Below the pieces are notes generated by a model. It was not told where the DNA came from, made no database searches, and saw nothing but the letters and a program-made list of their open reading frames with translations. The position numbers were made by a program, and so were the translations under genes. From Nautilus pompilius (taxonomy: Eukaryota > Mollusca > Cephalopoda > Nautilida > Nautilidae), in NCBI GenBank assembly GCA_018389105.1, contig JACATO010000589.1, positions 980,001 to 1,044,000 of the forward strand: 64,000 nucleotides of DNA, read 5' to 3'. Shown piece after piece: positions 14,782 through 61,689 of the stretch (positions within the stretch are counted from its first letter, which is position 1; every line of letters starts with the position of its first letter).

Positions 14782-17700
14782 GTAAATTTGCTTTTATATA
14801 TTTTACTTCTAGATTACTTTTAGCAAATTTTCTTGTTTTTTATGACAATGATATGTTTAACTTGCTCATATCAAAGATTGTTATGCAAAATTATAATATT
14901 ATAGAGTTTGGTCTTTTTCAAATTTAAATATTATCATTTGTTTCCTAGTTTTCATCTTGCAAGCTGCCATATTAGTTTTCTCTCTCTTTCTGCCCAAGGC
15001 GATGATATTTGTCTTTGACTTCATTTTTTTACTATTTAGTTTGTCTATTTACATGCTGTTGGCAAAAAAAAATATGGAGGAACTATCTCCAGGTGTGTGA
15101 ACGTGGGATGTGAACCAATTTGAGAGTAAATAATTTAGTTTATAGATGGATCAGGAGCCAACACCAGTGGATCTTTTATTGGGAAAACATTTACATAAAA
15201 GATACCACTTCAAGATTTGACTCAACTAAAATGAGCCTATGAATGAAGGACTACTACTATTCTCTCTCCCTCATCCATAAGTGTGACAAAAATAAAAATT
15301 TTTTTTTTTTTTTCCAGAAAACTAAACAACCCTAATTTTCAGCGCCATCCTAAAATATCCCTAAAACAGTTCTGCTCAATTATCCATATAGTTGCTCATT
15401 GTACAGATGGCAGTTACCCACAATGAAGTTTTGCTAAAGGTTGAGCAGAGAAATAAATCCCCAACTTACCAGAGCATTTCAAAAATATTTTCAGAAAAAT
15501 GCTTTATTTTGTTTAGATCTGGCACAGACCAGACAATAATTGCTTAGGATGGTATCTGCATTTCAGAAGTAAAACCTGCACAGTATTGTTAGCACAACAC
15601 TTGAGTGTTAACTACCAGGTTAACTTTTGGTCAGTAATTGTTTCATTAGGTAGAGCAATGATTTTTCTTTTTTATTGTTGTAGAATGTGAGTCTGGACAT
15701 TTTGGATCAGGCTGTAAACAGGTATGTCATTGCAAGAATAGAGGAAACTGTCATTATCTTACTGGAAAATGTCAGTCTGAAGGATGTGATTTTGGATGGA
15801 CAGGTGACAGCTGTTCCAAAGGTACTGTTGAAGCTTATTATCAACTTATCAAGCAAGGTTTCAGATTATTCTAAATTTTTTAGATTTACTTATTTCTGTG
15901 ACTAAAATTTTGACAATAAACATGAACAGTTGAGTTAGTTTGGAGAATGTGTGGTATCATTCAGCTTGATTTAAAGTTTCAAAATTTCACCTTTTTCTTT
16001 TTATTTGAATGACATATTTTCTGTATGAATCGTTTGACCGTTATATTTACAGTAATATTATCATGAACAGTAGTGAGGGAGTTTGAGAAGCTTTTCTTTA
16101 TTTTGAACAAAGATTTCAGACTGATCCATTGGATCACCTCCATGTTTTCATGAGTTGTTTTGATCAATTAATGGTAAAAAAAAACAAAAAAACCAAGAAT
16201 GTGAAATGTTTCACAAAATCTAATAATATGCAGGTTGATGCAATTTAATTAGATTTGATTTCATGTAAACAGGGAGACATAAAGTGAGTTAATTCTACAG
16301 CCGCTTAAAGACCTAGAAAAATGGTAAACAATGAAGATGTTAACAGATTTGAAAAAAGTGTCAGAAATTCTAAAAATGTAAATTGTAAAATTTGTCAGAT
16401 TTCTTTGAAATTAAGGAACTTTAAGCAGATTTTAAATGAAAATACGAAAATGGAAGGACAATCTCGTACGTGTTTGTAATAGTCTGAGCTTAATTAAAGT
16501 TTACTGTTTAAAGTATATTATAATTTGGAAAACAAAATATAATCCTGGTGAACAAGAAAGTTAATAGAAATCACCACAGCTATGAGGCAGATGATCAGGG
16601 GAAAAACAGCTGGTGGTAGAGAGATTAATAAAACTGTAGCTAGGAAAGTAAGTAAAGGAAATGAAGGTAGAAAGAGTTGTATTTCTACATATAATTCTGT
16701 TCTATTCTTCATGATTCAAAATTTATTTTTCATCTTGTGTAGATGTCTTAGTAATATGAACTTTCTACATCTGTCTTAGTCTAATTTACTACATGGAAAC
16801 ATGCACATATGATCTCACATGCAACATATCAGCAGTAAGTAAAATAAAGCAATTGCCTCAGATCTATGAGATAAAATAATGCAATATATATATTTATTAC
16901 ATGTTAGATATTTTTTTTCAGTTATCGTTTTTAATTTAAATGTTTGTAGTATAATTAACTGTTTTCAATAGTATGTCAACAAACTATAATATATCTAATG
17001 ACAGTTATACGTGGTGCAGTTAGCATAATACAATAGAGTGTTTTATTGTCATATACCATAATATTTTAGATTTAATTAATTTTTTAATATAAGCTGTTTC
17101 ATTTAGAATGTATATATTTCTTCAGTTGTTTTGTATTTAATGGTTATTTCTATTTATTTGCTCTACTTCAGAATGTGAGGACTTCAGATTTGGAGAAAAT
17201 TGTGGGTATTCCTGCAAATGTTTGAATAAGACAGAGGTTTGTCACAAACGTACAGGAGAATGTCCCATCAGTGGCTGGCCATCCTCATACAGAGGAGACA
17301 ATTATCCATCTGGTATTTTGATATTTTTAATAATCAAATAATCTGCTTGATGTTGAAAACAAATTAATTCTTTATGTAATTTTGTTGCTTATTCTTTCCC
17401 ATAAAAAGCAATACTAGTGATTATACAACTGTAGGTAGAAATTTTTTTCTTTTTGTAATTATACAGCTCAGAAGCCAACCTTGGCTTATGCAGCATACCC
17501 CATCCTGAATAGAATTGTTCAATTCTGTCCCTTTTTACTGTTTATTTCATGGCTGAAGGAAAGAATCATTGCCATTACAGCTGTTGACAGTTGTTATCTT
17601 GCCATTAGTTTGCTTAGTGAACAGCCAGAAGAAATCCTGGCTATGAAATAAAAATACAACAAAAAATATCAGCAGCCACATTTTTGTTTAGATGAAATCA

Positions 17701-20700
17701 TGTAAACGTCTGAGATAAGTTTACTAAACTTTTATTTTAGAAGGAAATAACATGTAAACTTTAGGTATTTTAATTTAAGTGCTCATCAAGAGTCATGAGT
17801 GTAAGCTGACTGAGAAACCTGCTGAGTTGGACATGAAGAAATGTTTCTCGTTAGTAATTGTGTAATGTGTGCACGGAGATATTTTACCAAGTGTGGTGCT
17901 GGAGGCTGATATGTGAATATTTTTGTTTTTTTTATATAGTGGATTTTATCTATTTGTTTTTAACTTTTCTTGGCAAATGTGGCTTTTGATATATTTTTCA
18001 ATTTACTGTTTCTCTGATTTTCAATAAAATTTGCAGATTTTTTCTCATTGCTAAGAAAATTAACAACATTTGGAAATGTTCCATCTTGTTTCATCACCAG
18101 TTTTCTAATAACTACTCGTTAACTTACAGCTTGCCAAGATCATTTGTTAGGGGTTCACTGTTTTGACCATTGCTTTTGTGAGAAAAGTGAAGGTTGTACC
18201 CTCGAGGCTGATGTTGCTGACAAAAGGAAATTCTGTGGAAAAGGATGTCTAGCAGGATGGAAAGGAGACTACTGTTCACAAAGTAACTGAGTTTCGGCAG
18301 AACTATTGTTATTTCATGAGATTATAGCTGTTGGTATCAGTCTGCTTAGATCACATCATGTCTTTGGTGGTTACGAAAAGTATCGATCTCCATTAATGGG
18401 AGTTTTCTTTGATTTCTGAGTTTTTCTGAATATCAGATTATCATTTCAGAAAAATTAAGGCATCAAGACCAAATACTTTTATTAATTTTACATTCATTTA
18501 TTTATTTAGACAAAAGGCCACTCTTGTGTCTTTTTTCTTTGAGAGAGAGAAAAAAAACAAAAAACGAAGCATAAGATTTACTGAAATTTGTGAAGGAACT
18601 GTCTATATTCTGGAAGCATTCATAACTAATTCATTCATGGTATAGAGTCAGAAAAATCAAAACTGAATAAAGAAAAATTGATTAAAAAATAACTCATTTA
18701 TTTAGTTGATATCACACATTAGTATCTGGAATTCTGTGAACAAATGACTGTTATAAATGTGGAAAGAAACTGCATTAGTTGACTTTTGTGTGAAGCATTT
18801 GTACAATTTTGACTTACAAACGATGTTAAAATGCATGTTCCTCCTATTTCATTAGACTATAAATCGATGTGATTAGTTCCTGGATTTTCTCCTAATAGAA
18901 TACAAAGATTATTTTTAATGTTTAGAAACAGTTTTGCTACTGTAGACGTGTTGGTGATTAAACATTAGATACACATTAAAGTTGTATATACTTTTTTGGG
19001 GATGTTACACTTATGACCTCAGAGCAACAACTAAAAATAATCAGTTAATTACTTCAATAAATTTAATATCAAGAAGGCAGTGAATCTTTAAAAGAAAGAT
19101 CTATTGTGACATCATTCATAGATGCTGTATTTAATGTTTTTGTCATTCTTTACTGAACATTTCTTTCATTGGGGCTAAAACAGTTTAGTTCAAGATTCTC
19201 AATTTATAAATCTCATTAAAAACACAACAAACATATATTTATGACAAAGGTTATTTCCATAAATCGAATCATGAATTAAAGTTATATAACTTTTCTATTT
19301 TTCACTTTATTGATTTACATTCAACATTTAATAAATTTTTTTTTATTTCCCATGGTATAGGACATTTTGCTGGAAACAAATTTGTATAAACTCTTTCTTA
19401 TTCTGTTTTTATATTTAAAAAATTTAATCTATTTGTTTCAAATTTTTAAAAAGAATGGAATATTTACCGTTATGTGTCGTTAGTTTTAAACATTTCATAG
19501 CTTTACATATTTTATCATCCACGATTTCAAAGTTTTAGAAAAATATGCATTGCTTTTACAATAAATTGTTATTGTGATTCAGTGCATCTGTATTATGTTT
19601 TGTGTACGTAATTTTTACTTAATGATACATTTGTCTACAGATTGCTCTGATTCTGAGTTTGGACACAACTGCAGGTGGACCTGTCACTGTAAGAATGGAG
19701 AAGCTTGTGATGATGTCACTGGCAAATGTAAAAATGGATGTGCAGCTGGTTGGCAACATGACAATTGTACACAAGGTACAGTAAATAGCAATATGTTTAA
19801 ACTATATTTACATTTATTAATACTTGTATCTCTGACGGTTTTGTGTATGCTAAAAAACTGTATTATTTTGATGTAGAATAAAGATACAAAAACAGAAACA
19901 GGATATGAACTGTATTTTTGATGACTTAAAGAAGGATCTTCCACATTCATATTGTTATCCCTACAAATGATTTCATACATAGCACTCCTACTTCTGTCAT
20001 TATAAAATGCTATTAAAAGTAATTGCTTTTCAAGATTGATGCAGGATATTAGTTTTAATTAGGTTTCCTGAATTCTCATTGTATTTTTCTGATGACTCAC
20101 AAGGAAGTAGAATGATTATAAACAAGATAGCTTTTATGACTGCTGATGGTTGATGCTGCGATTTCAGTCTTGTTGAAAAAAAAATAGGAATATTATGATA
20201 TTAATTTTCTCATAATTTTATCTTTTACTATTAAAAGTTACCTTTTTCAACAGTAAACTTGTTTTTACATTTGTTATTTCCATATTACTTTTAACAGATC
20301 TTCATCCATGTTTGTAGTTTAACAATATACAGTTGTCCCCCCGGTATTCGCGGAGGTTACGTTCCTAGAGCACCCCCGAAGAGTGAAAAACCGCGAATAT
20401 TGGACGTGGTCCATAAAAATGCCTATAAATGCCTATAAACGTCAAAATATAACGTAAAATATAATAAAAAAATATATAAGTAAATATATAATAATAATTT
20501 AATAAAAAAATACAACACTCAGAGAAACACTCAGCAAAACACTCGACATAGCTACACGCCAGCATTAAACTGGGATGATGCGGAGTTGCTGGGCTGGATC
20601 TGCCTGAGACAGTGCCTCGTGGGCAGCAGCCAATCAGCAGCAAGGAGAAATGAATAACGCTCTCGGATTGGCTACTTTCAAAACTCCAGCCAATAGTGTT

Positions 20701-23700
20701 TTTTTTATATTGATATTTTGCTGAATTTACGTTAGTATTTATATTACAAAATTAGTAAATTATATTGTTATTAATAATTTAGTGTTAAAAAGCGTGAAAA
20801 AAAAATATATTGCCACGAAAAAAGCCATAAAATATCGCGGAAGATATTTGCGATTCCACAAATATACGAGGGTTTCCACAAACAATTATTAGTTAGGTTC
20901 TAAGGTAAATTCCGCGAATAACCGGGGCCGCGAATGCCGAACCGCGACTACGCGGCAGTCGATTGTATGGACAAACAGCATACATACCATCATCAGTCAG
21001 CCTCACATGCAAATCAACAATATCCCTTTCCATTAAACGGATATTTTACTTAAAAACCATGACTGCAGTAGTATCCTGTAATCCAGTGACACATCAGATG
21101 TTACCAGAGATGAAGGAAAAATCTCTGATTATCACTCTATTTATTCTGATGCTTTATGTGTAGCTGATATACACTGTACATAGTTTGTTTGGTGGTAGGT
21201 CTGCTTATCTATGTGCCGTCACATACCTGGGAAAAGTTTCAATGTATATTTTGGTACAAATGCAAAAATTCTTCCTACTATTTTTGATCATTGTTTGTTT
21301 TATCCATTCATTAATGTTTATTTAGTATTTCTATTTGGTTTAATGAATTGTTGCAGAGTGTAAAGCCTGATTATGTTTATAATTAACTTGTGTCTGTGAT
21401 GAAAGATTTCAAAATTAATGGGAATCATTCAATTTGTACTTCAGAACATTCAGTGTGAAGATGTGAAATCAATTGGTTTGGATGATCTAATGTTCCTAAT
21501 TTCATCCAGTTTTAATGAAAAGATTTAGATTATCTACTGATAATTATTGATGAATAGTAATTCAGATGTTTTGAGGTTGTCAATCACTGAAACTTCATTG
21601 ATTAGTAGTTTGTTAAATATTTTGTTTTCACTGTGATCTTGTGGATGATCCAACTTGCTTTAGCCACTTTAAAAATGAAAAGAAAACCTTGGAAATGAGA
21701 AATGTTTTACAAAAGCTAATATTGTGCACATTAATATGTTTATGTAAATAATGTTGCAGCTAAACTTGGATACAAAACCTGCTGTATATGCTCAAGAATA
21801 TCAACATAAATTTAAAAGCTTAAACAAATTGTATAATCTTGATTCATTGAGAGTTTAAGATATAACATGAAATTTTAAAAAGAAAATTTATAACCTTTTG
21901 TGAGATTAAAGATTATAATGATTATTTGGACATGAGAACATTAGATTGTTTGTAGATGACTACGTCAAAATGAAAATGGAAGAATTGCGTTGTTTATATT
22001 TGTTACCTGATTTTAATTAGGTAAAGTTTATTTTAGCCAATTAAATTGTATTTTGCAACCAAAGTGATGAGAATGGAAGTTTATACGAGAAAAAATAACG
22101 TGTTAGATAGAGAGAATCTTTCTTGCATATGTATAAGTGGACAGTTGCATTATTGTCAGAATGATCTGATTAAAACTGTAAATTCTTCTTTTCTAGTGTG
22201 CTTATTGGAAAGAGACTACTGCTTCATATGGACCTTCTACAGCATTTTTAGTTTTGTTTACTACATGCAGTTTTACACACACACACACACACACTGCAGT
22301 GTATTCAGTATCAATTTGAAGAATGACTCCAATCATATGTAATGATAGGAAAAAATAATTTTTGGTTCAGTATTTTTGCAGATTTTTTTTCCTTTCAATA
22401 ACAGACATTTTTATTGCAGGTAACTTGTACAGGTGTATGTCAACAATCCTCCCAACTCTGTGTAGTTTGCAAAATTATGTACAGAGTATCAATCTTACAT
22501 TCCACAATTTTTTTAAGATTCATTGTTAATTTTTACCTTCATTTACAAAAAGATTTAAACATAAACGTTTTTCTTTTGTATTATGTATAGTTCATCAAAA
22601 TTTTTTAAAATAATTATTTCTATTTATTTGCTCTACTTCAGAATGTGAGGACTTCAGATTTGGAGAAAATTGTGGGTATTCCTGCAAATGTTTGAATAAG
22701 ACAGAGGTTTGTCACAAACGTACAGGAGAATGTCCCATCAGTGGCTGTCCATCCTCATACAGAGGAGACAATTACTCATCTGGTATTTTGGAATTTCTAA
22801 TAATCAAATAATCTGCTTAATGTTGAAAACAAATTAATTCTTTATGTAATTTTGTTGCTTATTCTTTCCCATAAAAAGCAATACTAGTGATTATACAACT
22901 GTAGGTAGAAATTTTTTTCTCTTTGTAATTATACAGCTTGGAAGCCAACCTTGGCTTATGCAGCATACCCCATCCTGAATAGAATTGTTCAATTCTGTCC
23001 CTTTTTACTGTTTATTTCATGGCTGAAGGAAAGAATCACTGCCATTACAGCTGTTGACAGTTGTTATCTTGCCATTAGTTTGCTTAGTGAGCAGCCAGAA
23101 GAAATCCTGGCTATGAAAAAAAATACAACAAAAAATATCAGCAGCCACATTTTTGTTTAGATGAAATCATGTAAAAGTCTGAGATAAGTTTACTAAACTT
23201 TTATTTTAGAAGGAAATAACATGTAAACTTTAGGTATTTTAATTTAAGTGCTCATCAAGAGTCATGAGTGTAAGCTGACTGAGAAACCTGCTGAGTTGGA
23301 CATGAAGAAATGTTTCTCGTTAGTAATTGTGTAATGTGTGCATGCAGATTTTTTACCAAATGTGGTGCTGGAGGCTATATGTGAATATTTTTGTTTTTTA
23401 TATAGTGGATTTTATTTATTTGTTTTTAACTTTTCTTGGCAAATGTGGCTTTTGATATATTTTTCAATTTACTGTTTCTCTGATTTTCAATAAAATTTGC
23501 AGATTTTTTCTCATTGCTAAGAAAATTAACAACATCATTCATAGATGCTGTATTTAATGTTTTTGTCATTCTTTACTGAACATTTCTTTCATTGGGGCTA
23601 AAACAGTTTAGTTCAAGATTCTCAATTTATAAATCTCATTAAAAACACAACAAACATATATTTATGACAAAGGTTATTTCCATAAATCGAATCATGAATT

Positions 23701-26696
23701 AAAGTTATATAACTTTTCTATTTTTCACTTTATTGATTTACATTCAACATTTAATAAATTTTTTTTTATTTCCCATGGTATAGGACATTTTGCTGGAAAA
23801 CAAATTTGTATAAACTCTTTCTTATTCTGTTTTTATATTTAAAAAATTTAATCTATTTGTTTCAAATTTTTAAAAAGAATGGAATATTTACCGTTATGTG
23901 TCGTTAGTTTTAAACATTTCATAGCTTTACATATTTTATCATCCACGATTTCAAAGTTTTAGAAAAATATGCATTGCTTTTACAATAAATTGTTATTGTG
24001 ATTCAGTGCATCTGTATTATGTTTTGTGTACGTAATTTTTACTTAATGATACATTTGTCTACAGATTGCTCTGATTCTGAGTTTGGACACAACTGCAGGT
24101 GGACCTGTCACTGTAAGAATGGAGAAGCTTGTGATGATGTCACTGGCAAATGTAAAAATGGATGTGCAGCTGGTTGGCAACATGACAATTGTACACAAGG
24201 TACAGTAAATAGCAATATGTTTAAACTATATTTACATTTATTAATACTTGTATCTCTGACGGTTTTGTGTATGCTAGAAAAACTGTATTATTTTGATGTA
24301 GAATAAAGATACAAAAACAGAAACAGGGATATGAACTGTATTTTTGATGACTTAAAGAAGGATCTTCCACATTCATATTGTTATCCCTACAAATGATTTC
24401 ATACATAGCACTCCTACTTCTGTCATTATAAAATGCTATTAAAAGTAATTGCTTTTCAAGATTGATGCAGGATATTAGTTTTAATTAGGTTTCCTGAATT
24501 CTCATTGTATTTTTCTGATGACTCACAAGGAAGTAGAATGATTATAAACAAGATAGCTTTTATGACTGCTGATGGTTGATGCTGCGATTTCAGTCTTGTT
24601 GAAAAAAAATAGGAATATTATGATATTAATTTTCTCATAATTTTATCTTTTACTATTAAAAGTTACCTTTTTCAACAGTAAACTTGTTTTTACATTTGTT
24701 ATTTCCATATTACTTTTAACAGATCTTCATCCATGTTTGTAGTTTAACAATATACAGTTGTCCCCCCCCCCCCCCGGTATTCGCGGGGGTTACGTTCCTA
24801 GAGCACCCCCGAAGAGTGAAAAACCGCGAATATTGGACGTGGTCCATAAAAATGCCTATAAATGCCTATAAACGTCAAAATATAACGTAAAATATAATAA
24901 AAAAATATATAAGTAAATATATAATAATAATTTAATAAAAAATACAACACTCAGAGAAACACTCAGCAAAACACTCGACATAGCTACACGCATTAAACTG
25001 GGATGATGCGGAGTTGCTGGGCTGGATCTGCCTGAGACAGTGCCTCGTGGGCAGCAGCCAATCAGCAGCAAGGAGAAATGAATAACGCTCTCGGATTGGC
25101 TACTTTCAAAACTCCAGCCAATAGTGTTTATTTTATATTGATATTTTGCTGAATTTACGTTAGTATTTATATTACAAAATTAGTAAATTATATTGTTATT
25201 AATAATTTAGTGTTAAAAAGCGTGAAAAAAAATATATTGCCACGAAAAAAGCCATAAAATATCGCGGAAGATATTTGCGATTCCACAAATATACGAGGGT
25301 TTCCACAAACAATTATTAGTTAGGTTCTAAGGTAAATTCCGCGAATAACCGGGGCCGCGAATGCCGAACCGCGACTACGCGGCAGTCGATTGTATGGACA
25401 AACAGCATACATACCATCATCAGTCAGCCTCACATGCAAATCAACAATATCCCTTTCCATTAAACGGATATTTTACTTAAAAACCATGACTGCAGTAGTA
25501 TCCTGTAATCCAGTGACACACCAGATGTTACCAGAGATGAAGGAAAAATCTCTGATTATCACTCTATTTATTCTGATGCTTTATGTGTAGCTGATATACA
25601 CTGTACATAGTTTGTTTGGTGGTAGGTCTGCTTATCTATGTGCCGTCACATACCTGGGAAAAGTTTCAATGTATATTTTGGTACAAATGCAAAAATTCTT
25701 CCTACTATTTTTGATCATTGATTTTTTTATCCATTTATTAATGTTTATTTAGTATTTCTATTTGGTTTAATGAATTGTTGCAGAGTGTAAAGCATGATTA
25801 TGTTTATAATTAACTTGTGTCTGTGATGAAAGATTTCAAAATTAATGGGAATCATTCAATTTGTACTTCAGAACATTCAGTGTGAAGATGTGAAATCAAT
25901 TGGTTTGGATGATCTAATGTTCCTAATTTCATCCAGTTTTAATGAAAAGATTTAGATTATCTACTGATAATTATTGATGAATAGTAATTCAGATGTTTTG
26001 AGGTTGTCAATCACTGAAACTTCATTGATTAGTAGTTTGTTAAATATTTTGTTTTCACTGTGATCTTGTGGATGATCCAACTTGCTTTAGCCACTTTAAA
26101 AATGAAAAGAAACCTTGGAAATGAGAAATGTTTTACAAAAGCTAATATTGTGCACATTAATATGTTTATGTAAATAATGTTGCAGCTAAACTTGGATACA
26201 AAACCTGCTGTATATGCACAAGAATATCAACATAAATTTAAAAGCTTAAACAAATTGTATAATCTTGATTCATTGAGAGTTTAAGATATAACATGAAATT
26301 TTAAAAAGAAAATTTATAACCTTTTGTGAAATTAAAGATTATAATGATTATTTGGACATGAGAACATTAGATTGTTTGTAGATGACTACGTCAAAATGAA
26401 AATGGAAGAATTGCGTTGTTTATATTTGTTACCTGATTTTAATTAGGTAAAGTTTATTTTAGCCAATTAAATTGTATTTTGCAACCAAAGTGATGAAAAT
26501 GGATGTTTATACGAGAAAAAATAACGTGTTAGATAGAGAGAATCTTTCTTGCATATGTATAAGTGGACAGTTGCATTATTGTCAGAATGATCTGATTAAA
26601 ACTGTAAATTCTTCTTTTCTAGTGTGCTTATTGGAAAGCGACTACTGCTTCATATGGACCTCCTACAGCATTTTTAGTTTTGTTTACTACATGCAG

Positions 26697-26738
<42 letters not shown>

Positions 26739-29700
26739 GTGTATTCAGTATCAATTTGAAGAATGACTCCAATCATATGTAATGATATAAAAAAATAATT
26801 TTTGGTTCAGTAGTTTTGCAGATTTTTCTCCTTTCAATAACAGACATTTTTATTGCAGGTAACTTGTACAGGTGTATGTCAACAATCCTCCCAACTCTGT
26901 GTAGTTTGCATAATTAGGTACAGAGTATCAATCTTACATTCCACAATTTTTTAAAGATTCATTGTTAATTTTTACCTTCATTTACAAAAAGATTTAAACA
27001 TAAACGTTTTTCTTTTGTATTATGTATAGTTCTTCAGAATTTTTTAAAATAATTATTTCTATTTATTTGCTCTACTTCAGAATGTGAGGACTTCAGATTT
27101 GGAGAAAATTGTGGGTATTCCTGCAAATGTTTGAATAAGACAGAGGTTTGTCACAAACGTACAGGAGAATGTCCCATCAGTGGCTGGCCATCATCATACA
27201 GAGGAGACAATTACTCATCTGGTATTTTGGAATTTCTAATAATCAAATAATCTGCTTAATTTTCAAAAGAAATTAATTCTTTTTGTAATTTTGTTGTTTA
27301 TTCTTTCCCATGAAAAGCAGTACTAGAGATTATACAACTGTAGGTAGAAATTTTGCCTTTGGTAATTATACAGCTCGTAAGATTATGATGATTATTTGGA
27401 CATGAGAACATTAGATTGTTTGTAGATGTCTGTATAAATGATAATGGAAAAATTTCATTGTTTATATTTGTAACCTGATTTTATTTAGGTAAAGTTTATT
27501 TTTAGCCAATTATATTATGGTTTTCCAAACAAAATAAAAATTTCATTAGGATGCAGCTTGATAAAAACTATCGTTCAAAAAGAAAAGGAAATCTTTGTCT
27601 GTTCACAAAGTGACTATTAATGTTGATAGCTGGTGGGTTAAACCAAAAAATGACTTCTCCTGTAGAGAAACTAATGGTTCCCATTATGGGAGTTAGTTTT
27701 GGTCTTTGAGTCTTCCTTGAGGACAGAATTATCCTATCATATAAACCAAAGTATCAGAACAAAGAAAACCACACTTCATTACTTTGTTTAGGTTTGCATT
27801 TATTAATTTATGTAGATAAAAAGTTCTTTTTTATGTATTGTTTATTTTTTTCTTAAGAGAAAAAACATTATAAAGCATAAAATTTACTGATATTTGCATG
27901 GGTGTCCACAAGGTATAGCAAAAGGGGCAGCTGTTCTCCTCTCCTACTGGAATGTTGGTGGTGATTGCGTAATGATAGCATTATTTCTGTCCCAATTCTC
28001 CATGCACCAGTGAGCATGGTGAATTGAGCACCTGACTGTGTTTGGCCAAAGGCAAAAGATCAAAGGCTAGGAATAAAGTAGCAAGATAGGAAAATGCAAT
28101 ATAAGGTACTTAGAAAGCTTGTGCATTTCAAAGTGTATAGTTAAACCATCTGTCACTCTGTCTAGTTTTGAGAAACAAGCTGATAGTGTTATTTAAGATG
28201 TGAAGGGATTGCTAATTGATTATTATGACTCTATTTTTATTGATTAGTTAATGACCCTAGCAGCACATACATTGGTTAATTAATTCAGATCCCACTGGGA
28301 AGTACAATTTGGCAAAGGAATCCTCATCCAATAGCTGAGTGATTCAGTCAAGCTAAGTCAAGAATGATTTAACTTTGTATTTGTTTTAGATATTTCGTTT
28401 ATCTTCATTTTTTGAAAATGGATATCAGAAAAATTTTAGCAAAGCAGAAATTATAAACACCAAAGAAAAAAATACAAAAGAAGACAGGATCTTATGAACA
28501 AATCTCTGGTCCAGATTTAACAACATCAGCTAAATCTGATTACCCTAATCATTCTGATGATAATCCTGATGATGATATATTGCAGGTTAATTTGTATATA
28601 AAACTAACAGACAATCTTAAACACAGTCTACTTGTAAAAAGTAACTTATTTCTTGAGAATTACGATCTCAAAAAGGATCTTAGAGTTTCATCGAGTGTGG
28701 CTAAATCAATATTCACCATGGCTTAGTTATTCCCCACATGTAAAAGGAGCAATTTGTAAATATTGTACAATTTTCCCACAGTGAGTTCATCATGGAACAC
28801 AGGGGACCCTTCACCATGACAGCTTTTACAAAATATAAAGACTTTCATGAAAGTACAAGAAGTCATATTCTTCACACTTGGCACAGAAATGTGCAGGTGA
28901 ATGCAATTAAATTTTTGGCCATCAGGTAAAAACTGGAAACGAACAATGTGTGTGCCAACTGGTCAGTGCTTTGAAGTGGAGCATTGAACAGAACCAGAAA
29001 GCCTTATATCCAATATTGTCCACCATTCTATTTTGTTGTACATGTAACATTGCTTTACATGGTCAAGGAAGCAAACTGGAAATGTTTAATGCCTGCTTAG
29101 TTTTCATATTGAATCAGGAAATGAAATGCTATAAAGCATTTGGAAAATTCTCCAGCTGATGCTCTCTATACATCTGTCCATGTAAAAAATGAACTAATCA
29201 GTTTCAACAATTGCTGATGAAAGTGCTGACATAACTGGAAAGGAGCAATTGTCACTTGCAGTACATTTTATTGACACAAAGATTACTGAAAATATTATCC
29301 AAGAGGAATTTCTTTGATTTGCAAGACAATATGAACTGGATGCTACTTCAGTTGCCAATACTATTAGTGGTATTCATCAGAGTACAGAGTTTGGTTTGAA
29401 TCTAGAAAAATTACATGGCTAAGGATATGACAGATGCTTTGCAGTGGCAGGAAAAAAAAAATGTCTTGTAAACAACAATAAAATGTAAGTATTCAAAATC
29501 TGTTTTTGTCCATTGTACTGCTCATAAACTCAGTTTGGTCATGAATTACTTAATCATGTACCTAAGACACAATACAATTGGTACAATGAAAGGTATTATA
29601 CGATTTTTTCATAAGAGTCCAAAGAGAAGATATCCTTTCCAAAATATGCCACTACTATTTGAAATGCATTGGACTGTAAAACACTTAAGTATTAGAATTT

Positions 29701-32700: not shown

Positions 32701-35700
32701 TAGGAGCCCGAACTTTGACTGTACATGGTGGGACTGGTGCAGTCAAGCTGCACTCCCATTGGCTGGCATCAGCGGCTACAAAAGCTGGACAGGGACTTCA
32801 TGGGACACCAGCATCAGACACACACGAGCTAGTGAATATCAGGCCAATATCGGCCCCAACACATTAAAGCTACTTGGTCAGTGATTGTCATGTTGATGCA
32901 AGCATTTCAGTGAATTTCACTATTATTACAGTAAGTGTAAATGTGAAAACATTTAAAACCGTGTAATAACATTTGATTCTTCTTTATTAATGATAATTTT
33001 AACTAAAAAGTATTTTACTTCTCGTTACCAACACCCGTGGAAAAATTCATGGATATACTCATATTGGAATTTCTATGAAATGTTTTTATATTAGAAAAAA
33101 AACTAGTTATCTTATTTACATTTATTTACTGTACAAGTTCTTTAATTATATTACTTTTATAATTAGATTGAGAACATAAAAGATGAGTAGGTACAAAAAT
33201 ATCTATAGTTACGACATATTAGAAGTGCTAACCAACTGCACAATTGGTGTAACTTTATTCCTGTTATGCAAGATTTATACATTATATATAGAGATTTAAC
33301 CATAACTGAAGTGTCTCATCAGTCGGCAGACTAAATAGGTTTTGCCTCTCCTGAAGAAGTAAACGTTTATTATTCAATAAATAATGGAAATAATAATTTG
33401 TAGGTGTGCATTCTAATATACTCGTATATATTTAATTATGTTGGTTGTATAATTTTCATATTTCTAACAAAGATTAATAAAATGTATAACTTTATGACGA
33501 AGTTTTAAGTTGAGGGAAAACAAGAATATTGATGTTCTATGATTTTAAGATCTAACGATATTTGCTAAATCATTAGAAGCAGCATCTTTAAAATTACAGT
33601 AGATTTATGTGCGTTGCTTCCTAATGCAGTAAATATCTTCAATATTAGATCTATAATATTTTTGCACTCTTACAGTATATATATACCAATCAGATTTCAG
33701 CCTTTATTATTTGGTTTATTTTTTGACTTCAGATTACCCATGGCTGCTGCAACAAAGAAAAAATGCCGACAGCATTCCATTGAATATTTGGCCTATGGTT
33801 TTATTCCATCACAAGAGAGTATCACAAAACCAATGTGTCTTATGTGTATGACTGCACTGTCAAATGAAAGCATGAGGCCATGTAAGCTTCAAAACCATTT
33901 GGAGACAATGCACAAAGAAAAGAAAAACAAATCAATAGATTACTTTAAAAAACTATATGATGATTCTCAAGCAAGAAAAACATTGGATCAGATGTTTAGC
34001 AAACAAGTAAGCAAAAGAGATAAAGGTTTACTTGCATCTTATGAGACTTCCAAGATAATTGCAAAAGCTGGAAAACCTCATAATATTGGTGAAACTTAAA
34101 TTTTGCCAGCAGTATCTGTTGTAATTTCAGCTGTCATGAACCAAAATGCAAATGAAATTACTAATTTCATCCCTTTGAACAAGTCATCAGTATCAAGGCG
34201 CATTGACGAAATGGCTGATGATGTTGAAAAGCAACTAGTTGCCCAATTGCAAGTGAAACAGTTTGCCCTGCAACTCAATGAATCTACTTTGAGGGATAAT
34301 GAAGCCATTATTTTGGTGTATGACAGGTTTTTCGATGATAATCGGCAGAGAAAGGAAATGCTTTTTGCCTGAACTCTTAAAACAGACATAAAGGTGAAAC
34401 AATTTTCAAATAAGTTGAGACTTATTTCAAGGAGAACAGTATTCCACTTGGAAATATAATGGCTTGTGCTACTGATGGTGCTTCATCAATGGTAGGTAGA
34501 TATAGAGGTTTCATTGCACAGCTAAAAAAATGCTTTGCCTGAGTATTTTGCATACACTGCATGATCCACCGCCAACACTTGGTTGCAAAACAATTGGATG
34601 GACGTTTGCATGACACCCATACCATTGTAATAAAAGCTGTCAACCTTATTAAATCAAATGCACTTCAAGATCATCTCTTTCATGAACTTTGTAGTCAAAA
34701 TGGAGAAGAGTTTGACCACCTTATAATGCATACAGAGGTGCATTGGTTATCTGAAGGTAGTTGTCTTCGTCGCTTTGTTGCACTTTGGGACTATTGTTTC
34801 ATTTCTGAATAGCAAGCAGCTCGGCAAACAGTTGGTTGCTGTGAGATGTGATATATTTTACTCATCAGATGTATTTGAAAAGCTGAATTTGCTTAATAAA
34901 CAGTTACAAGGAAAACACTGTGATCTAATATCTTGCAAAGAAGCTATTACTGCTTTCCTTGGAAAACTCAAGCTGTTCAGGATTAATATAGGACGTCGTG
35001 CATTGGAGCAGTTTCCATGTCTGGCCTCGATTAGCAATGAATTGCATGATGATGACCTTGCTGTGTATGTTGAACATTTGAAAAATTTGCACGATGATAT
35101 GCAAGCTCGGTTAAACGATCTACTGGAGATAAATATTCCAGTTTGGGTGATGATTCCATTTGAAGTAAATGCTGCTGATGTAGACATTGCTTTACAGGAG
35201 AGCCTTATTAAAGTACAGAGTGACCAAGAAGCTCAAGCTAGATTCAAAGATCAGAAACATAATATATGGAAAAGTAGTGATGCTGCTAAGAAATATATAC
35301 TACTCTGGGAGAAAGCAAAGTTGTATGTTATTGCTTTTCCCATATCTTACCTTGTTGAATCTAACTTTAGTCGTGTGTCTCACTTGCTATCAAAAGCTCA
35401 TAACCACCTTGATATTGTACAAAGAGGTGATCTTCATCTGTCATTGACAACGCTGGAGACATATATTAAAAAACTTGCGGATCTACATCAACCACAAGGA
35501 TCGCATTGAATGAATAAACAATGATAAAAATGTTTTGTTTCAAAGATTTCCTATGAATATAGTGCACATTATAATAGGTCTTTGGCAATCCTTATATGTA
35601 TTGTAGGTTATGCTACTAGTGCACATTCATATTTCATAGAATTTTGTTTGTTAAAATATAAGTTTATTTGCATAGAATTGGTTATTTTTGTAAGCTAAAA

Positions 35701-47700: not shown

Positions 47701-50700
47701 TATGTTGATAATAGATGCTGTTTTGTTATATTCTTTGTTTTGCTAGGAAACATTTTTGTTTACTTCCATGTTTTTTTTGTTGATTTGTTCCAAATGTGAA
47801 TTGACATTCTGCTTCCAAGTTTGCTTTTGAAAACATTCTGACATTTACAGAGCTGGTATTGGTCGAACTGGAACATTTATTGCACTGGATATTTTAGTGG
47901 ATGAAGGACTGCAGCAAGGACATGTGGACATACTACAGTGTGTACAAAAACTGAGACAACAAAGAGTGAGCATGGTTCAGAATGAGGTTTGTTTACTATA
48001 TTCAGGTTTCTAAACTGCTTGTATGTCATAGTTTGTAGTAATGTTGTAAGCAACATTTGTGCTTTTGTGTTTGTTGTAAGCGACATGCACGATCTGATGA
48101 TTATTTATCATGGCAGTCACTATTACTTGTATGCTTCAATTTATATCTGAATAAACCCTCTAATTTGAGTAATACAGCCTGTGTTTTATAGTAGAACTAC
48201 TACAATTTATTCAGACATAATTTTAATTCTATACTAGAATTATGGAACGTCTATTGCGACCAGAGTGTCTAGACACAGACCCAAGTTCGAGTACGGCTGC
48301 CAAAGAATGAAGTCACTGGTTGAAGACATTCAAAAATTTCATTGCAGTCCTTCCGCAAGAAGAATTAGATACACTGAGCGTGCTGACAAATTTTGTGACT
48401 CCGAAGTTATATGAACCTCTATCTGAATGCTCCAGTTATGAAGACGCAATCTCTACATTAGCATCAATATTTGTGAAACCCACTAACAAAGTATTTACTC
48501 GTCATTCCCTTGCTACCTGTCGACAGCAGCGAGGTGAGTCCCTTGATGAATATTTTCAAGCCCTACACTCACTTGCTAAGGACTGTAACTTTAAATCTGT
48601 GACTGCTCAACAGCATCAAGATGAAGCTATATGGGATGCCTTTATCACTGGCCTATGCTCACCTGTAATTCGGCAGCGTTTGTTGGAAAACAAGATACTT
48701 GATATTAGTAACGTGTTTGATCATGCCAGAGCCCTAGATGCTGCTCAGAGAAGTTGTGAATCATATTCAGTCTCTCTTGAGTCAATTCCCAGTGTGTCGG
48801 TAGTACCTGAAATTAAGCAAACTGAAAATACAGGAACTTTACTGGATTCGCAGTTGTCGGTTGCTGTTGGTCAATGTTTCTTTTGTGGATTAAATAGGCA
48901 TCACCGGTCTCGTTGCCTAGCACGAGAAGCAATTTTCCACAAATGTAAGAAAGTGGGGCATTATGCTGGTGTATGTAACGAATGTCGAAATTCAACTACA
49001 GGTACTAGTCAGTCAACCCCCAGTGCTGCAATTCAACTAGCAATTACTTGCATAACTTCGGCTACTACACCTACTGGATTGTCACCTGCTGTCAATTCCA
49101 TCTACATTATTGGCTTCATGTGCAAAGGACTGTTTGATAGTGGTAGCACTGATAGTTTTATACACCCAGATGTTGTGAAGGAACACTCATTTCAAGTATT
49201 TAATTCTCAAAAACAGTATCTATGGCTACATCCTCCCTTGCCTCTAAAACAGATGGATACTGCAAAGTGCAAATTGAGATACAGGGTGTAGCATATAAAG
49301 ACATTGAGCTATCAGTATTGCCTGGCCTGTGTTCTGATGTGATTTTAGGTCAAGATTTTCAAAGGCAACATGAAAGTGTGACCGTGAATTATGGTGGAAA
49401 ATCCCCCCTCTTGTCATATGTGGATTAACTGCTTTAAATGTGGAACCTCCCAGCTTATTTGCTAATCTCACAGCTGACTGTCACCCCATAGCTGCCAAAT
49501 TACGTCGATACAGTTCTGATGACCGTAAGTTCATAGATTGTGAGATTAAACATCTACTGCAGGAAGGTATAATTGAACTTAGTAATTCTCCGTGGAGGGC
49601 ACAGGTTGTTGTTACTAAATCAGAAAACCACAGGAAACGCCTTGCAATTGATTATTCAGAAACTATAAACAAATTTACACTCTTAGATGGTTGTCCACTC
49701 CAACGTATTGATGAAACCATACACAAGATTGCTCAACATAAAGTCTTCAGCACAATTGACCTGAGGAGTGCATACCATCAAGTGACTATTTGTGCTGAAG
49801 ACAAACCCTATACTGCTTTCGAGGCTAGTGGAGCATTTTACCAGTTTACTCGAATTCTATTTGGGGTTACTAATGGTGTAGCATGTTTCCAACGCATCGT
49901 GGATACCTTCATTAAAGACAATAATCTTGATGGAACATATGCTCACTTATTACAATATAACGATTTGTGGGGTGTTGCAAAAGGAGCATGATTTTAATCT
50001 GAACAGATTTTGAGTGGCTGCAGAGAAAGTAAATATCACTTTCAATGAAGACAAAAGCATATTTTCAACAAAAAAACTCTATTTTTGGGTATGTGATTGA
50101 GAATGGTGAATTACAACCTGATCCTGAATGTCTGAGACCTCTTAAAGAATTGCCGATACCCAGTGATATGAAAATGCTTCGTTGTTGTCTTGGACTTTTT
50201 GCATACTACTCAAACTGGATCTATAACTATTTAGAGAAAGTCCGCCCGCTTATTACTACCACAACCTTTTCAATGTCAGATGAAGCACATGGGGCATTTA
50301 TACTAATCAAAGATGATGATATACAATCAGTAGTACAGGCTATTGATGAAGATTTAGCATTTGAGGTCGAGACAGACGCATCAGACAATGCCATAACAGC
50401 TATGTTAAACCAAGCTGGACGTCCCGTGGCATTCTTCTCTTGTACTCTCCAAGGATTGGAACGACACCATGCTGCTGTTGAAAAGGAAGCCCAAGCTATT
50501 ATAGAGTCAGTTCGACATTGGCGGCATTACTTAACTGGAAGGCATTTTACCATGAAGACTGATCAGCGCTCTGTGAGCTACATGTTTGACAAGACCAGAA
50601 GAAAGAAGATTAAGAACGATAAGATCATGCGTTGGAGGGCAGAACTTTCCTGTTTTGACTTTGACATTGTTTATCGTCCTGGCAAGGATAATGTCTCAGC

Positions 50701-53700
50701 TGATATCCTTTCAAGGTCATTTTGTGCTTCCCTTATTTATAGTGAAGGTCACTTGCAAAGTATTCATGAGTCATTATGTCACCCTGTAGTAACACGCATG
50801 TACATTTTGTTAGGTCCCAGAATCTTCCTTATTCTTTGGAAGAGGTAAGAAGGGTCACAAGAGTATGTAAAATCTGTGCAGAGTACAAACCAAGGTTTCA
50901 CAAGTCGGATCAAGCCCATCTTATTAAAGCTACCCAACCTTTTGAACGTTTAAACATAGATTTTAAAGGTCCCCTTCCTACTAATAGTAAGAACAGATTT
51001 TTACTTTGCATAGTAGATGAGTATTCACGTTTCTCCTTTGCATTTCCTTGCCATGACATATCTGCATCAACAGTTATTGCATGTCTTAATCAACTGTTTT
51101 CACTTTTTGGCATGCCAGCTTATGTTCACTCTGATTGTGGATCTGCATTTGTTAGTAGAGAGCTAAGGAAATTTTTGACCTCTAAAGGTATTGCATGTAG
51201 CCATACAAATGCATATAACCCTGAAGGAAATGGGCAAATTGAACGCTATAATGGCATTATTTGGAAATCCATTTCAATGACTCTTCAATCTCGAGGCTTA
51301 AATGTTAAAAATTGGGAAATGGTTTTGCCTGATGTATTACACTCCATTCTCTCTTTACTTTGTACGGCCACAAATACCACTCCTCATGAGCGTATGTTTA
51401 ACTATTCCAGGCGATCCACAACTGGGGCTTCTATTCCATCATGGTTATGCGTCCCTGATCCTGTATTGCTAAAGAGGCATGTCCAATACAATAAGACTGA
51501 CCCACTTGTTGATGAGATTCAACTATTAGATGCTAATCCTCAATATACACACACGTCATACAGACGGTTGTGAAAAAATTTTATCAGTCAAACACCTGGC
51601 CCCAGCTGGTAGTGTACCAGCCCCCACACCTGTTGAGAATGTCCCTACCAACAACTCTGGGCATCCTTCTTTCGTGCCTACTCTGGAAAACTCTTTGTCA
51701 TCCAATGTCCCTTCTAATGACCAAATAGATTCTGTATCTATTAAAAGGATTGTACTTGAGCCACAAAAAGTAACTTTAGAACCTCCAGATGTGGATACCT
51801 CGTCAAGTATACCTACAGTTTGCATATCTGGGCATACTCGCCGTGCCCCAGACTGTTTAGATCTTTAAGTTTAATTTTACTCTTCAATGGTTGTTCATTT
51901 TTGAAGATAGGGGTGAATGTCATAGTTTGTAGTAATGTTGTAAGTGACATGCACGATCTGATGATTATTCATCATGGCAGTCACTTTTACTTGTATGCTT
52001 TGATTTATGTCTGAATAAACCCTCTTATTTGGGTAATACAGCCTGTGTTTTATAGTAGAACTACAACATCGTGTTAATTGATAGCACACAGTGAGATGTG
52101 CACACCTTGTGTTCTGATTCTGGTGAAACTTTCCTTTGAATCTGATTAGACTGAAAGCTTATTAAGGCCATCCATCAATCTTGAAAAATACTACTCCCAA
52201 GTCTCTCTGAAATGGTACATTTTACATTTTTCAGCATTTTGAAAAAAAAAAATTTCAAAAGTTATTTAAGTATCTTGAGGTCTTTTTAATTTTAAAAAGT
52301 TTGGACATTTTTCAGTTATACTAGAATATATTATATATGAGAAAGGAATCAACCAACTAAATCCATGATTACAGAAAATATGTTATTTTGTAAATTTTTA
52401 ACTTGCATCCAAAAATCTCCAGAAATCCAGTTTGGAAATTACAGTATACTATTTTGGTCATAAATTTCTGGTCTACAACATATCATCATGAATATGACAT
52501 GTACTTAGTTTTGAAAACCACGCTGTTAACTTTTGTTAGTGGTTGTACAAATAATTTTCTCTAGAAAAGGTTCTTATAGTTTGTAACTGTTGAAGTCCTA
52601 GTTGAAAAGTACATCTTTATTTCATGTAAGTACAGTTTACACTGGTGAATTAAATAATAAATCTAATGTGTCTATCATAGACTTGCTACAACTAAAGCTT
52701 TTGTTTGTTTATTGCTTTTTGTTGTTTTATTCCTTGTAGATGCAGTACAAATTCTTACACGCAGCACTTTTGGAGTCTTTACTCTTCTGTGGAACTGAGA
52801 TTTCTGTTTGTGATTTTATCAATGTTCTGCCTCAAATACAAAATACCAGTATTTCAGGAAATTTTCATAAGAGAATGGTAGAAGAATATTGGGTATGTCC
52901 TCATGAGATACATTATCTGCTTCTTCTTGCTTTTTTCAAATGAGAATACAAATTCAAATCTGTGATAGTATCAGACTAATCCTATTCAGATTATGTTGTT
53001 TTGTATATCCATTTTAGTTGCTCATGTTTTAAATAAAATATTTTTGCTATTAATAAGATTAATCAGTCTTCAGCAAATGACTAGCTAAATGTTTAATTTT
53101 CTTTTTCGTGAGCATTGCTAATAAAGTCAGCCTTGCCCAATAATTCATATTCAGATTTTTGCTGTCATTTTATTGTAAATGATCAGAATGTGAAATGCTT
53201 TACTAGTTTGAGACAATTTTATCCTGTCTCCATGCAGAAACGTTGTATGATATCCACTTTAAAATTAAAGCAGCAAGTACAGTGATTAGAAAAGACATAA
53301 GGATGGGCTGTAACTGATCATAAGTTGTTACTAAAAGTTAAGCTCTTGAATGCTGGAGACAAAAAATAATACACTGATTTAAAAAAATAATTCACAAGGT
53401 TGATTGGCTGATAAATCCTCCATCTTGAAGGTGGTGGCTAATGAAGAGGATCATGACTGGAAAAAGTAGAACCTGGAAAGCAGGCATTAACCCTCTGTGT
53501 ATTACTTGAAGTGCATTTTCTCCCAACATTGTTCAAAGTATATCAATTAGCACAGGTTGAGCCAAAGGAGCTATGTATGATTCACTGTTTTCTTCAGTAA
53601 TATATAATTTGCAGTACAAGTACTAAATATGCAGCAAATTTAACACACATACTAAATAGTGCTTGGCTGGTATGGTATTGTATAAGTAATATACAGAGAG

Positions 53701-58779: not shown

Positions 58780-59238
58780 GTGAGTACTGGAGCTTGATTT
58801 TCTGTTACATGCATCATAACTATTTCCATTACACCTTCATTATACATGTGTCACTATTACTGGTTGGTCATTAATAGCCTGACCACCACCTACCATTACA
58901 GTAAATCTACATTGTGAAAGTCTATTTTAAAATACAAATCTACAATAAATTTTGTTGAATTTGTACAAGGGGTCAGTTAAAAATATGTCTTCGTATTTAT
59001 TTTAGGATTTAAAGGTCATTATAATACTTTAGTAGAGTTAAAATTATTTTTATTTATTCAAATCCCTTTTGAAGGTTTTTTTTCATGCATACGAAACACA
59101 AGCATTCTATTGCCTCCTGAGACTCTTCACCGTGAATAGTGAATACTATAACACATGCAGATTAAAAATACTGTAACACTTTAGCAACCTGAATTTTAAA
59201 AAAAGGATTAGATACAGTAATTAATTGGACATTTGTTA
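58780..59238. other. AT-rich intron or 3' flank, no exon recognised
   Basis: I looked for the missing D2 exon that should complete the HC-x5-R loop and found none between the last donor and the transposon at 59239. Confidence 0.5.
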
Positions 59239-61572
59239 CACAGGTCTGCAATGGAAAAATTGTCTGAAAACTAATAGCTGATTCTTATAGATTTTGGGGT
59301 GCTGTTTTCAGTAAAAATAGCTAAAATAATTCCATCATATACCATTTTTTCACAAACTCAAATTTCTGATTTCAATATCTCCAAAATCACTGTATTAAGC
59401 TTCTAAACAAAAAATTAATTATAATTAATTTTTCTTTTTATTACTCATTTTTACTCACTCTTTTTTGTTTCCCCCTCTCCACACTCCCTACTTGGACTCA
59501 GTTGCAATTAGATCTTTGTGTGAGAAGGTTCTGTCATAACCAGTGTACTTTTCCAGCGTGTCATTTCTGCAGAAGTTTACATTTTTTCTCCTTTTTCCTT
59601 AGTGGTTTTTATTTGTTGTTTTTTCTTCTGTTTATAAGTGTACTAAATGGCTGCAATTGGTTGTTTTAATACACCTGATAACTTTTGTAGTGAAGAAACA
59701 GCAAAGAAACATTACAGGCTTTAAGAAAGTGTATTATGCGTATTTTGGTGTGAAACTTGGTAACCAGGATAAGTCCTCGGCCCCCACATAAAGTGTGTTC
59801 TATTTGTGTGGAAGAACTCAGACAGTGGTCTCAAAGTAAGAAAAAGTCTCTCTGTTTTGGGATCTCTATGATCTAAAGGGAACCTCAAAATCACAGTTAT
59901 GACTGTTACTTTTGTTCTTGTAACATACAGGGGTTCAATCTAAAAAATTTTCTATCCAAACCTCTCGTCGACAATACGCCCTGTACCTCAAGGCCCGGGT
60001 ATATTAGTACTTTTACCTCCAGAAAAACTAGAAGACACACCTGAAGACTCTGAAAAAGAAGGCCAGGATTCTAATGAGGACTTTCATGATGTTTCAGGCA
60101 GCAGCAAGCCCCAACATTTTTCACAGCTTGAATTGAATGACTTAGTCAGAGATTTGGGTCTTCCTAAAGATGCAGTAGAACTGTTAGGCTCTAGTTTAAA
60201 GGAAAAGAACTTGTTGGCCCCTGGTACCTCTTTCTCATGGTTTAGAAATAGAGAAAAATATTTCATTCCATACTTTTCTAAAGAAGGTGACCTGGTTTAC
60301 TGTAGAGATTTCCCTGGACTGATGGAGAGGTTTAACATACAGTATGACGTGAACGAGTGGAGGCTCTTTATTGACTCATTAAAAAAGAAGCCTCAAAGCA
60401 GTGCTTCTCCACAATGGCAGCAAGTACGCTTCAGTACCAGTAGTGCATTTTGTGTATCTGAAAGAATGTTACAAGAATTTAGCCTTAATTCTCACCAAAC
60501 TGAAATACAAGGATCAGGGATGGACGATATGTGACGATCTAAAAGTAATTTCCATGCTTCTTGGACATCAGGGAGGATACACCAAGTACCCCTGCTTCTT
60601 GTTTGAATGGGACAGCTAGGATAGGGGCCAACACTGGATCTAAAAGGAGTGGTCGTGGAGTGTAGAATTAGAACCTGGAAGCAAAAATGTAGTACAGGAA
60701 AGTTTGGTTGATCCAAGGAAAGACCTCCTGCCTCCACTTCATATCAAGCTTGGACTGATGAAACAATTTATAAAGACACTGTCAAAAGAAGGAGAGTGTT
60801 TTAAATACCTGTGCAACAAGTTTCCAGGACTGTCAGAAGCAAAAGTGAAAGGTGTTTTCATTGGTCCAGATATTCAGAAACTTCTGAAAGATGATCATGA
60901 TGTGTTTGAAACAAAAATGGAAACAGTTGAAAAAGAGGCCTGGAAAGCTTTCAAAGAAATTGTACAGAAATTTCTTGGGAACTATAAGGACCCAAGCTTT
61001 CAGTGTATTGTGGAAAACATGCTGATGAAATTCAAAGACTTGGGTTGTTCAATGAGCTTGAAGAGGCACTTCCTGAATTCTCATTTAGACTACTTCCCTG
61101 AAAATCTTGGTGCTGTTAGTGAAGAGCAGGGGGAAAGATTTCATCAAGATATCAAGGAGATGAAACGCAGATACCAGGGTAGGTGGAACATCAACATGAT
61201 TGCAGACTACTGTTGGATGCTGTACAGAGAAGAGCCACAAGCTGCCTACAAGAGAAAAGGTACCAAAAGGAGCTTTGAGAGAAAACGGAAAAGGCAGTAT
61301 AAGGACTTGTAAAGGTGAGTAAGTGTTGAGAGCGGTTTTCTATCAATGATTTTGTAAATGAAACTATTTTAAAATTTTTTTTGCAAATAAATGTTTCAAC
61401 CAGAATACGTATTAATAATCTCTTTTCCCATATTTTCGGATTCACTTTGTGAAAAATCCTTATGTGATAGAGAAAGATAGTGGTCATATTTGAAATCAGC
61501 ACACCAAACAACATAAAAATCAGTTATAACATTGCACACATTCTTCAATGACCCAAATTTTGCAGACCTGTG
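59239..61572 (+). mobile_element. 2.33 kb DNA transposon with CACAGG termini and TTA flanks, family unnamed
   Basis: The left end CACAGGTCTGCA (59239-59250) and right end TGCAGACCTGTG (61561-61572) are perfect 12-base inverted repeats. Both are flanked by TTA. The single coding region between them is a decayed copy of a widespread protein family. CAC-starting termini and 3-base target duplications are known for CMC (EnSpm/CACTA-like) elements, and TTA/TAA targets for PIF-Harbinger. I cannot decide between them or a separate group. Confidence 0.75.
59650..61312 (+). pseudogene. Putative transposon protein of the GERFHQD family, broken
   Basis: A Cys-bearing N-terminal part (CSICVEELRQW-like and DCYFC-like blocks in shifting registers, about 59790-59935) is followed by LELNDLVRDLGLPKDAVELL, YDVNEWRLFIDSLKKKP, a VLLHNG relic, CDDLKVISMLLGHQGGYTKY, PPLHIKLGLMKQFIKTL, LGCSMSLKRHFLNSHLDYFP, EEQGERFHQDIKEMKRRYQG and MIADYCWMLYREEPQAAYKR. 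I know this protein as a multicopy, unnamed family in many animal genomes. Conserved acidic and His residues suggest a nuclease-like transposase, but that role is inference. Frames break near 59760, 60400-60540 and 60620-60700. Confidence 0.7.
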
Positions 61573-61689
61573 TTATTGTTATTATTTTTCTTTTTAATTT
61601 AAAAAAAAAATGTATTTTCCTTAATTCCTAGTGTTGGCTTGCTTACATGAAGGGCGGAAGGAGAAGAGGTGGGGAGGGTTCAAGCTCTT
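61573..61689. other. Short spacer between two transposons
   Basis: AT-rich, with an A-run near 61602; nothing recognised. Confidence 0.5.

Follow-up and report, generated by a model that had tools for sequence, protein, structure and literature searches.

A decayed Chapaev3-type DNA transposon and its sister families in the genome of Nautilus pompilius

Does a protein carrying the strings GERFHQD, SHLDYFP and PPLHIKLGLMK belong to a mobile element and, if so, to which kind? The question arises at positions 59239–61572 of a 64,000-nucleotide stretch of Nautilus pompilius DNA (contig JACATO010000589.1, positions 980,001 to 1,044,000; hereafter the window), where an earlier note on the sequence had proposed a compact 2.33-kb unit with perfect inverted ends and TTA flanks, and had taken the enclosed protein for the transposase of an under-described, orphan family. 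We are highly confident that this copy, old and no longer active, belongs to an autonomous Chapaev3 element, a cut-and-paste DNA transposon of the CMC group. Only its members appear to be new; the kind of transposon is already known and of an ordinary type.

Ends, copies and an empty site

An inverted-repeat search of the window returned perfect 14-nt arms at 59238–59251 and 61560–61573. We read the TTA at 59236–59238 (preceded by G) and the TTA at 61573–61575 (followed by T) as the two copies of a target-site duplication, giving an element of 2,334 bp at 59239–61572 on the plus strand, exactly as first delimited. Its 13-bp perfect arms are CACAGGTCTGCAA at the 5' end (59239–59251, plus strand; commonest family form CACAGGCCTGCAA) and TTGCAGACCTGTG at the 3' end (61560–61572, minus strand). 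The 12-mer first noticed, CACAGGTCTGCA, is a variant, since the commonest end form among the copies reads CACAGGCCTGCA. From the window alone the signal for an inverted-repeat element is moderately convincing: there are two 12-mer inverted pairs 1–4 kb apart with identical 3-bp flanks, where shuffling of 500-base blocks, repeated 60 times, gives 1.05 on average. When at least six G+C letters are required, the element is the sole such pair, and any such pair occurred in 3 of 200 shuffles. Self-comparison of the window found no second copy. Proof of the element comes from its copies in the genome.

Those copies were sought in the organism's own assembly of 727.6 Mb in 2,558 contigs. The 222-amino-acid frame that holds the three strings gave 150 scored matches out of 6,107 first-look candidates, all those listed with an expect value (E) of 1.1e-69 or lower, and the 5' end of the family, TWACACAGGCCTGCAATGGAAAA, gave 198 matches with up to two mismatches while its reversed control gave none. 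We read the 30 best loci (L004–L033, the window copy included; family A), calling an end at up to eight mismatches in 24 letters. Both ends were found in 25 of the 30, and in 15 of these the 3-bp flanks are identical and read TTA or TAA (TWA). In five copies (L005, L011, L014, L015 and L028) one end or both are missing from the stretch read, and end letters have changed in some decayed copies. Among the ten copies with both ends and without identical flanks, L019 gains TAA/TAA flanks if its start is moved. A single base separates the two flanks of L008, L013, L016 and L020; those of L007, L018, L021, L029 and L032 do not match. L007 lies exactly at the eight-mismatch limit, and the 5' end called for it is probably spurious. 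Two pairs, L026/L030 and L018/L021, share flanks and were counted as duplicated segments, so that the 15 identical-flank copies amount to 14 independent insertions. The duplication lies in an A-TWA-T context in 14 of the 15, the exception being the window copy with its G. Among 18 of the 30 copies, selected as being near full length, the mean Kimura two-parameter (K2P) distance is 0.093 and the copies differ by 3.7–6.4% from the column majority; family A is an old burst.

Joined flanks of the window copy and of five copies of a sister family (family B, described below) were used as queries and gave 48 match rows in the same genome. For the window copy there are, by our count, 14 candidate empty sites: at six the match runs unbroken through the junction, and at eight others the two flanks lie no more than about 12 bases apart. 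Four of the 14 were read (L072–L075). L072 reads CATTTATTATTTTT, with the element absent and a single TTA in A-TTA-T, so that the left neighbour base is A at the empty site and G at the window copy. At the other three the element is missing, and with it the T-rich stretch that surrounds the site, so the TTA is not seen there. The same query found no junction-spanning empty site for the five family B copies.

Because copies across the genome share their ends, many of them are flanked by identical TWA and one empty site shows TTA only once, the unit is a mobile element and the protein its transposase, as the earlier note had supposed. That note had also held that copies of the protein lacking these termini, or chance termini with no empty site carrying a single TTA, would refute the proposal; for family A the proposal withstood this check. 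Some copies of the protein have other inner end sequences, but these form sister families in which CAC..GTG and TWA are retained.

The element interrupts what seems to be a decayed minus-strand element (59147–59238 and 61573 to about 63400), sitting in its non-coding end, and the end of this older element is repeated in the genome. From the resemblance of its frames we presume it to be Tigger/pogo-like.

The transposase remnant and its assignment

The transposase gene of the window copy is broken by a frame change, two in-frame stops and a ruined N-terminus; all its parts lie on the plus strand. The decayed N-terminal part, presumably a Chapa-like zinc finger, was placed by eye at 59647–59943, its start being set by likeness to copies L013 and L028. 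By its own frames and those of sister copies, a first open frame follows at 59944–60534, and around 60383 the reading shifts to a second frame (60383–61312) with stops at 60617–60619 and 60641–60643. GERFHQD, SHLDYFP and PPLHIKLGLMK all fall within the 222-amino-acid frame at 60644–61312. The first frame holds the presumed first catalytic Asp, in WRLFID (60373–60375), and the second frame the presumed second Asp, in ICDDLK (60536–60538). Next come a C(2)C motif at 60593–60604, whose second Cys is lost to Phe in this copy (CFLF), the LH motif at 60731–60742 (PPLH), the H(4)H motif at 61067–61084 (HFLNSH) and the presumed catalytic Glu in QGERFHQD (61133–61135), which is invariant across the six rows of our alignment A1. 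In family B, whose presumed triad is D272, D326 and E524, the equivalent Glu falls within a predicted helix at residues 521–537. Alignment A1 thus contains C(2)C, LH and H(4)H together with D, D and E, although D or E is lost in some other decayed copies.

These features have a published counterpart. According to Zhang et al. 2014 (PMC4079192), Chapaev3 elements end in CAC/GTG, duplicate TWA set between A and T, and have empty sites, and their transposases are marked by C(2)C, LH and H(4)H. The same paper describes Garfield, Merrow and Conan, which the present elements resemble in ends, target and motifs and, in families A and B, in a length of about 2.3 kb (2,289 bp for Garfield_BM). The Garfield_BM transposase has 556 amino acids and that of family B 574; Garfield and Merrow have two exons and most other Chapaev3 elements one, while family B has a single open frame. 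An N-terminal Chapa zinc-finger domain has likewise been reported for Chapaev3 (PMC4411706). Since the marks of Chapaev3 are already in print and are found here, the proposal of an orphan or under-described family does not hold. Instead, a kind of protein without a name can be named as a Chapaev3-type transposase and tied to its ends, duplications and empty site.

No Pfam-A model scored above cut-off for the window protein, the sister proteins or the members of profile A2, which may be the reason such proteins go unnamed; for 14 members of A2, Pfam gave weak matches to unrelated families only (best E 0.014), and the best PHROGs match had E 0.034. The 15 PDB matches of the window protein (E 0.03–0.41; 14 to bacterial enterotoxin and one to a Cas12-type protein) were taken as chance, and PDB searches with the intact family B protein (one match) and with profile A2 (three matches) found no transposase. 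When predicted folds of an intact relative were compared with known structures, RAG1, the recombinase of antibody genes, ranked first and HzTransib came shortly after.

The lack of a convincing match in Pfam, PHROGs or PDB might point to a so far unrecognised superfamily of DNA transposons whose transposase is an orphan, and the strings GERFHQD, GERFHQ, HIKLGLMK and SHLDYFP are absent from the papers searched. Such string searches prove little because alignments are usually printed as figures, and the ends, duplication, A/T context, empty site and motifs of Chapaev3 were all found, so that we regard a new superfamily as very improbable. From the window alone one might also suspect that the inverted repeats flank a host gene or a domesticated protein by chance, for 12-mer inverted pairs whose 3-bp flanks match are not uncommon there. 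The 198 family ends against none in the control, the copies with the same boundaries, the empty site and the broken frame reduce this explanation to a negligible one.

The 3-bp duplications would also be compatible with PIF/Harbinger, which has TWA as its target too, or with EnSpm/CACTA, which shares the CMC group and, as reported, both CAC..GTG ends and 3-bp duplications (PMC12730594). However, the joint presence of C(2)C, LH and H(4)H is given as a Chapaev trait in PMC4079192, Pfam listed no model of Harbinger or EnSpm type for our proteins, the motifs fit CMC, insertions here are in TWA unlike those of EnSpm/CACTA, and RAG1 heads the predicted-fold rankings, followed closely by HzTransib. 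A member of either superfamily is thus highly unlikely, and Chapaev3 remains the assignment we adopt.

Likeness to Transib and RAG1 lies in the predicted core fold and in a D-D-E triad with C(2)C/H(4)H; in family B the second D stands 19 residues before the first C, as we take it to stand in RAG1. Sequence matches to Transib or RAG1 were not detectable in the PDB searches with the family B protein and profile A2. Transib makes 5-bp target-site duplications, in contrast to the 3-bp TWA found here. By the reading that we favor, an intact Chapaev3 transposase, which has 574 amino acids in family B, would attach to the CACAGGCCTGCA ends, probably via its N-terminal zinc-finger region. A presumed RNase H domain of the RAG1/Transib type, which carries the D, D, E triad and into which a zinc-binding C(2)C/H(4)H region is inserted, would then excise the element by DDE cleavage, possibly through a hairpin intermediate such as RAG1 and Transib form. 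Insertion with a 3-bp stagger into A-TWA-T would produce the TWA duplications.

Sister families

Four Chapaev3-like families (A–D) were read in this one genome. Family B comprises L034–L049, L051 and L053 (18 of the 20 loci of one search) and, in addition, L058, with copies of about 2.31 kb. Its ends, CACAGGGGAACA and the counterpart TGTTCCCCAGTG, are both present in 16 of 18 copies, and all 16 have TWA duplications in A-TWA-T. The mean K2P distance is 0.0041 and the maximum 0.0093 (15 copies), and a 582-codon frame is found in five of the 18 (L037, L038, L042, L043 and L044), the intact transposase being a single open frame of 574 amino acids; L038 has H at the second Asp position. The protein contains CYIC, CHNC and CYFC pairs that reach no Pfam model. 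Family B looks recently active. Its 5'-end pattern gave 93 matches with up to two mismatches compared with none for controls, 69 of them exact with TWA. Sixteen of the two-mismatch matches, by our count, share another end, CACTGGGAAACA, which stands as CACTGGGAAACAAATTTTAA after TWA at the 16 places, and probably represent a further Chapaev3-like family.

Family D (L050, L052, L056 and L059) has the ends CACAGGGTAACA, with flanks TAA in L056 and TTA in L059, in a search that started from CACA and required identical flanks. Its protein has matches to PF12560 (RAG1 importin binding, E 0.01) and zf-AD (E 0.017), both below cut-offs. Family C (L054, L055 and L057) has the ends CACTGGTCAACA and copies of about 1.76 kb that are 98–99.8% alike, and equally scored matches lie on further contigs. 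Its frames of 354–367 amino acids cover the catalytic part of the transposase only, and by eye one of the three copies has identical flanks, TAA on both sides with T before. CAC..GTG ends are thus found in families A and B, and also in D, where the search started from CACA, and in C, judged by eye.

It is conceivable, and we put it forward tentatively, that family B is a Chapaev3 element mobile at present or until very recently, beside which family C spreads as a 1.76-kb unit with the catalytic part only. If so, excision and hairpin formation could be tested directly with a RAG1-like transposase that nature has kept intact in family B. The practical value lies in the young, intact copies of family B, which make such a transposase testable.

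Searches beyond the genome and other window features

No relatives outside the organism's own genome were confirmed in viral-contig or genome-contig collections, and a PPLHIKLGLMK-type pattern had no match in contig collections outside that genome. Three loci found with a degenerate GERFHQDI pattern (L001–L003) are alike in the short peptide only, the best tblastn match being E 3.4e-4 over 28 residues (L002), and were set aside as chance. A phage collection gave 79 records, the best 20 of which have E values of 4–7. The telomere-type repeat TTAGG was seen at a single internal site (7 overlapping matches, against 1 and 1 for the reversed control).

Elsewhere in the window, a 3.85-kb direct duplication (19109–22938 and 23532–27375, 98% identical, with more pieces at 17144–18069 and 22614–23535) is either a tandem duplication or an assembly artefact. 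Direct repeats of about 140 bp (92% identical) flank gag-pol-like frames at 48311–51865 and together span 48064–52068, which we take to be probably a Ty3-like retrotransposon. Frames at 33569–35506 resemble a transposase remnant, presumably of the hAT/ZBED type.
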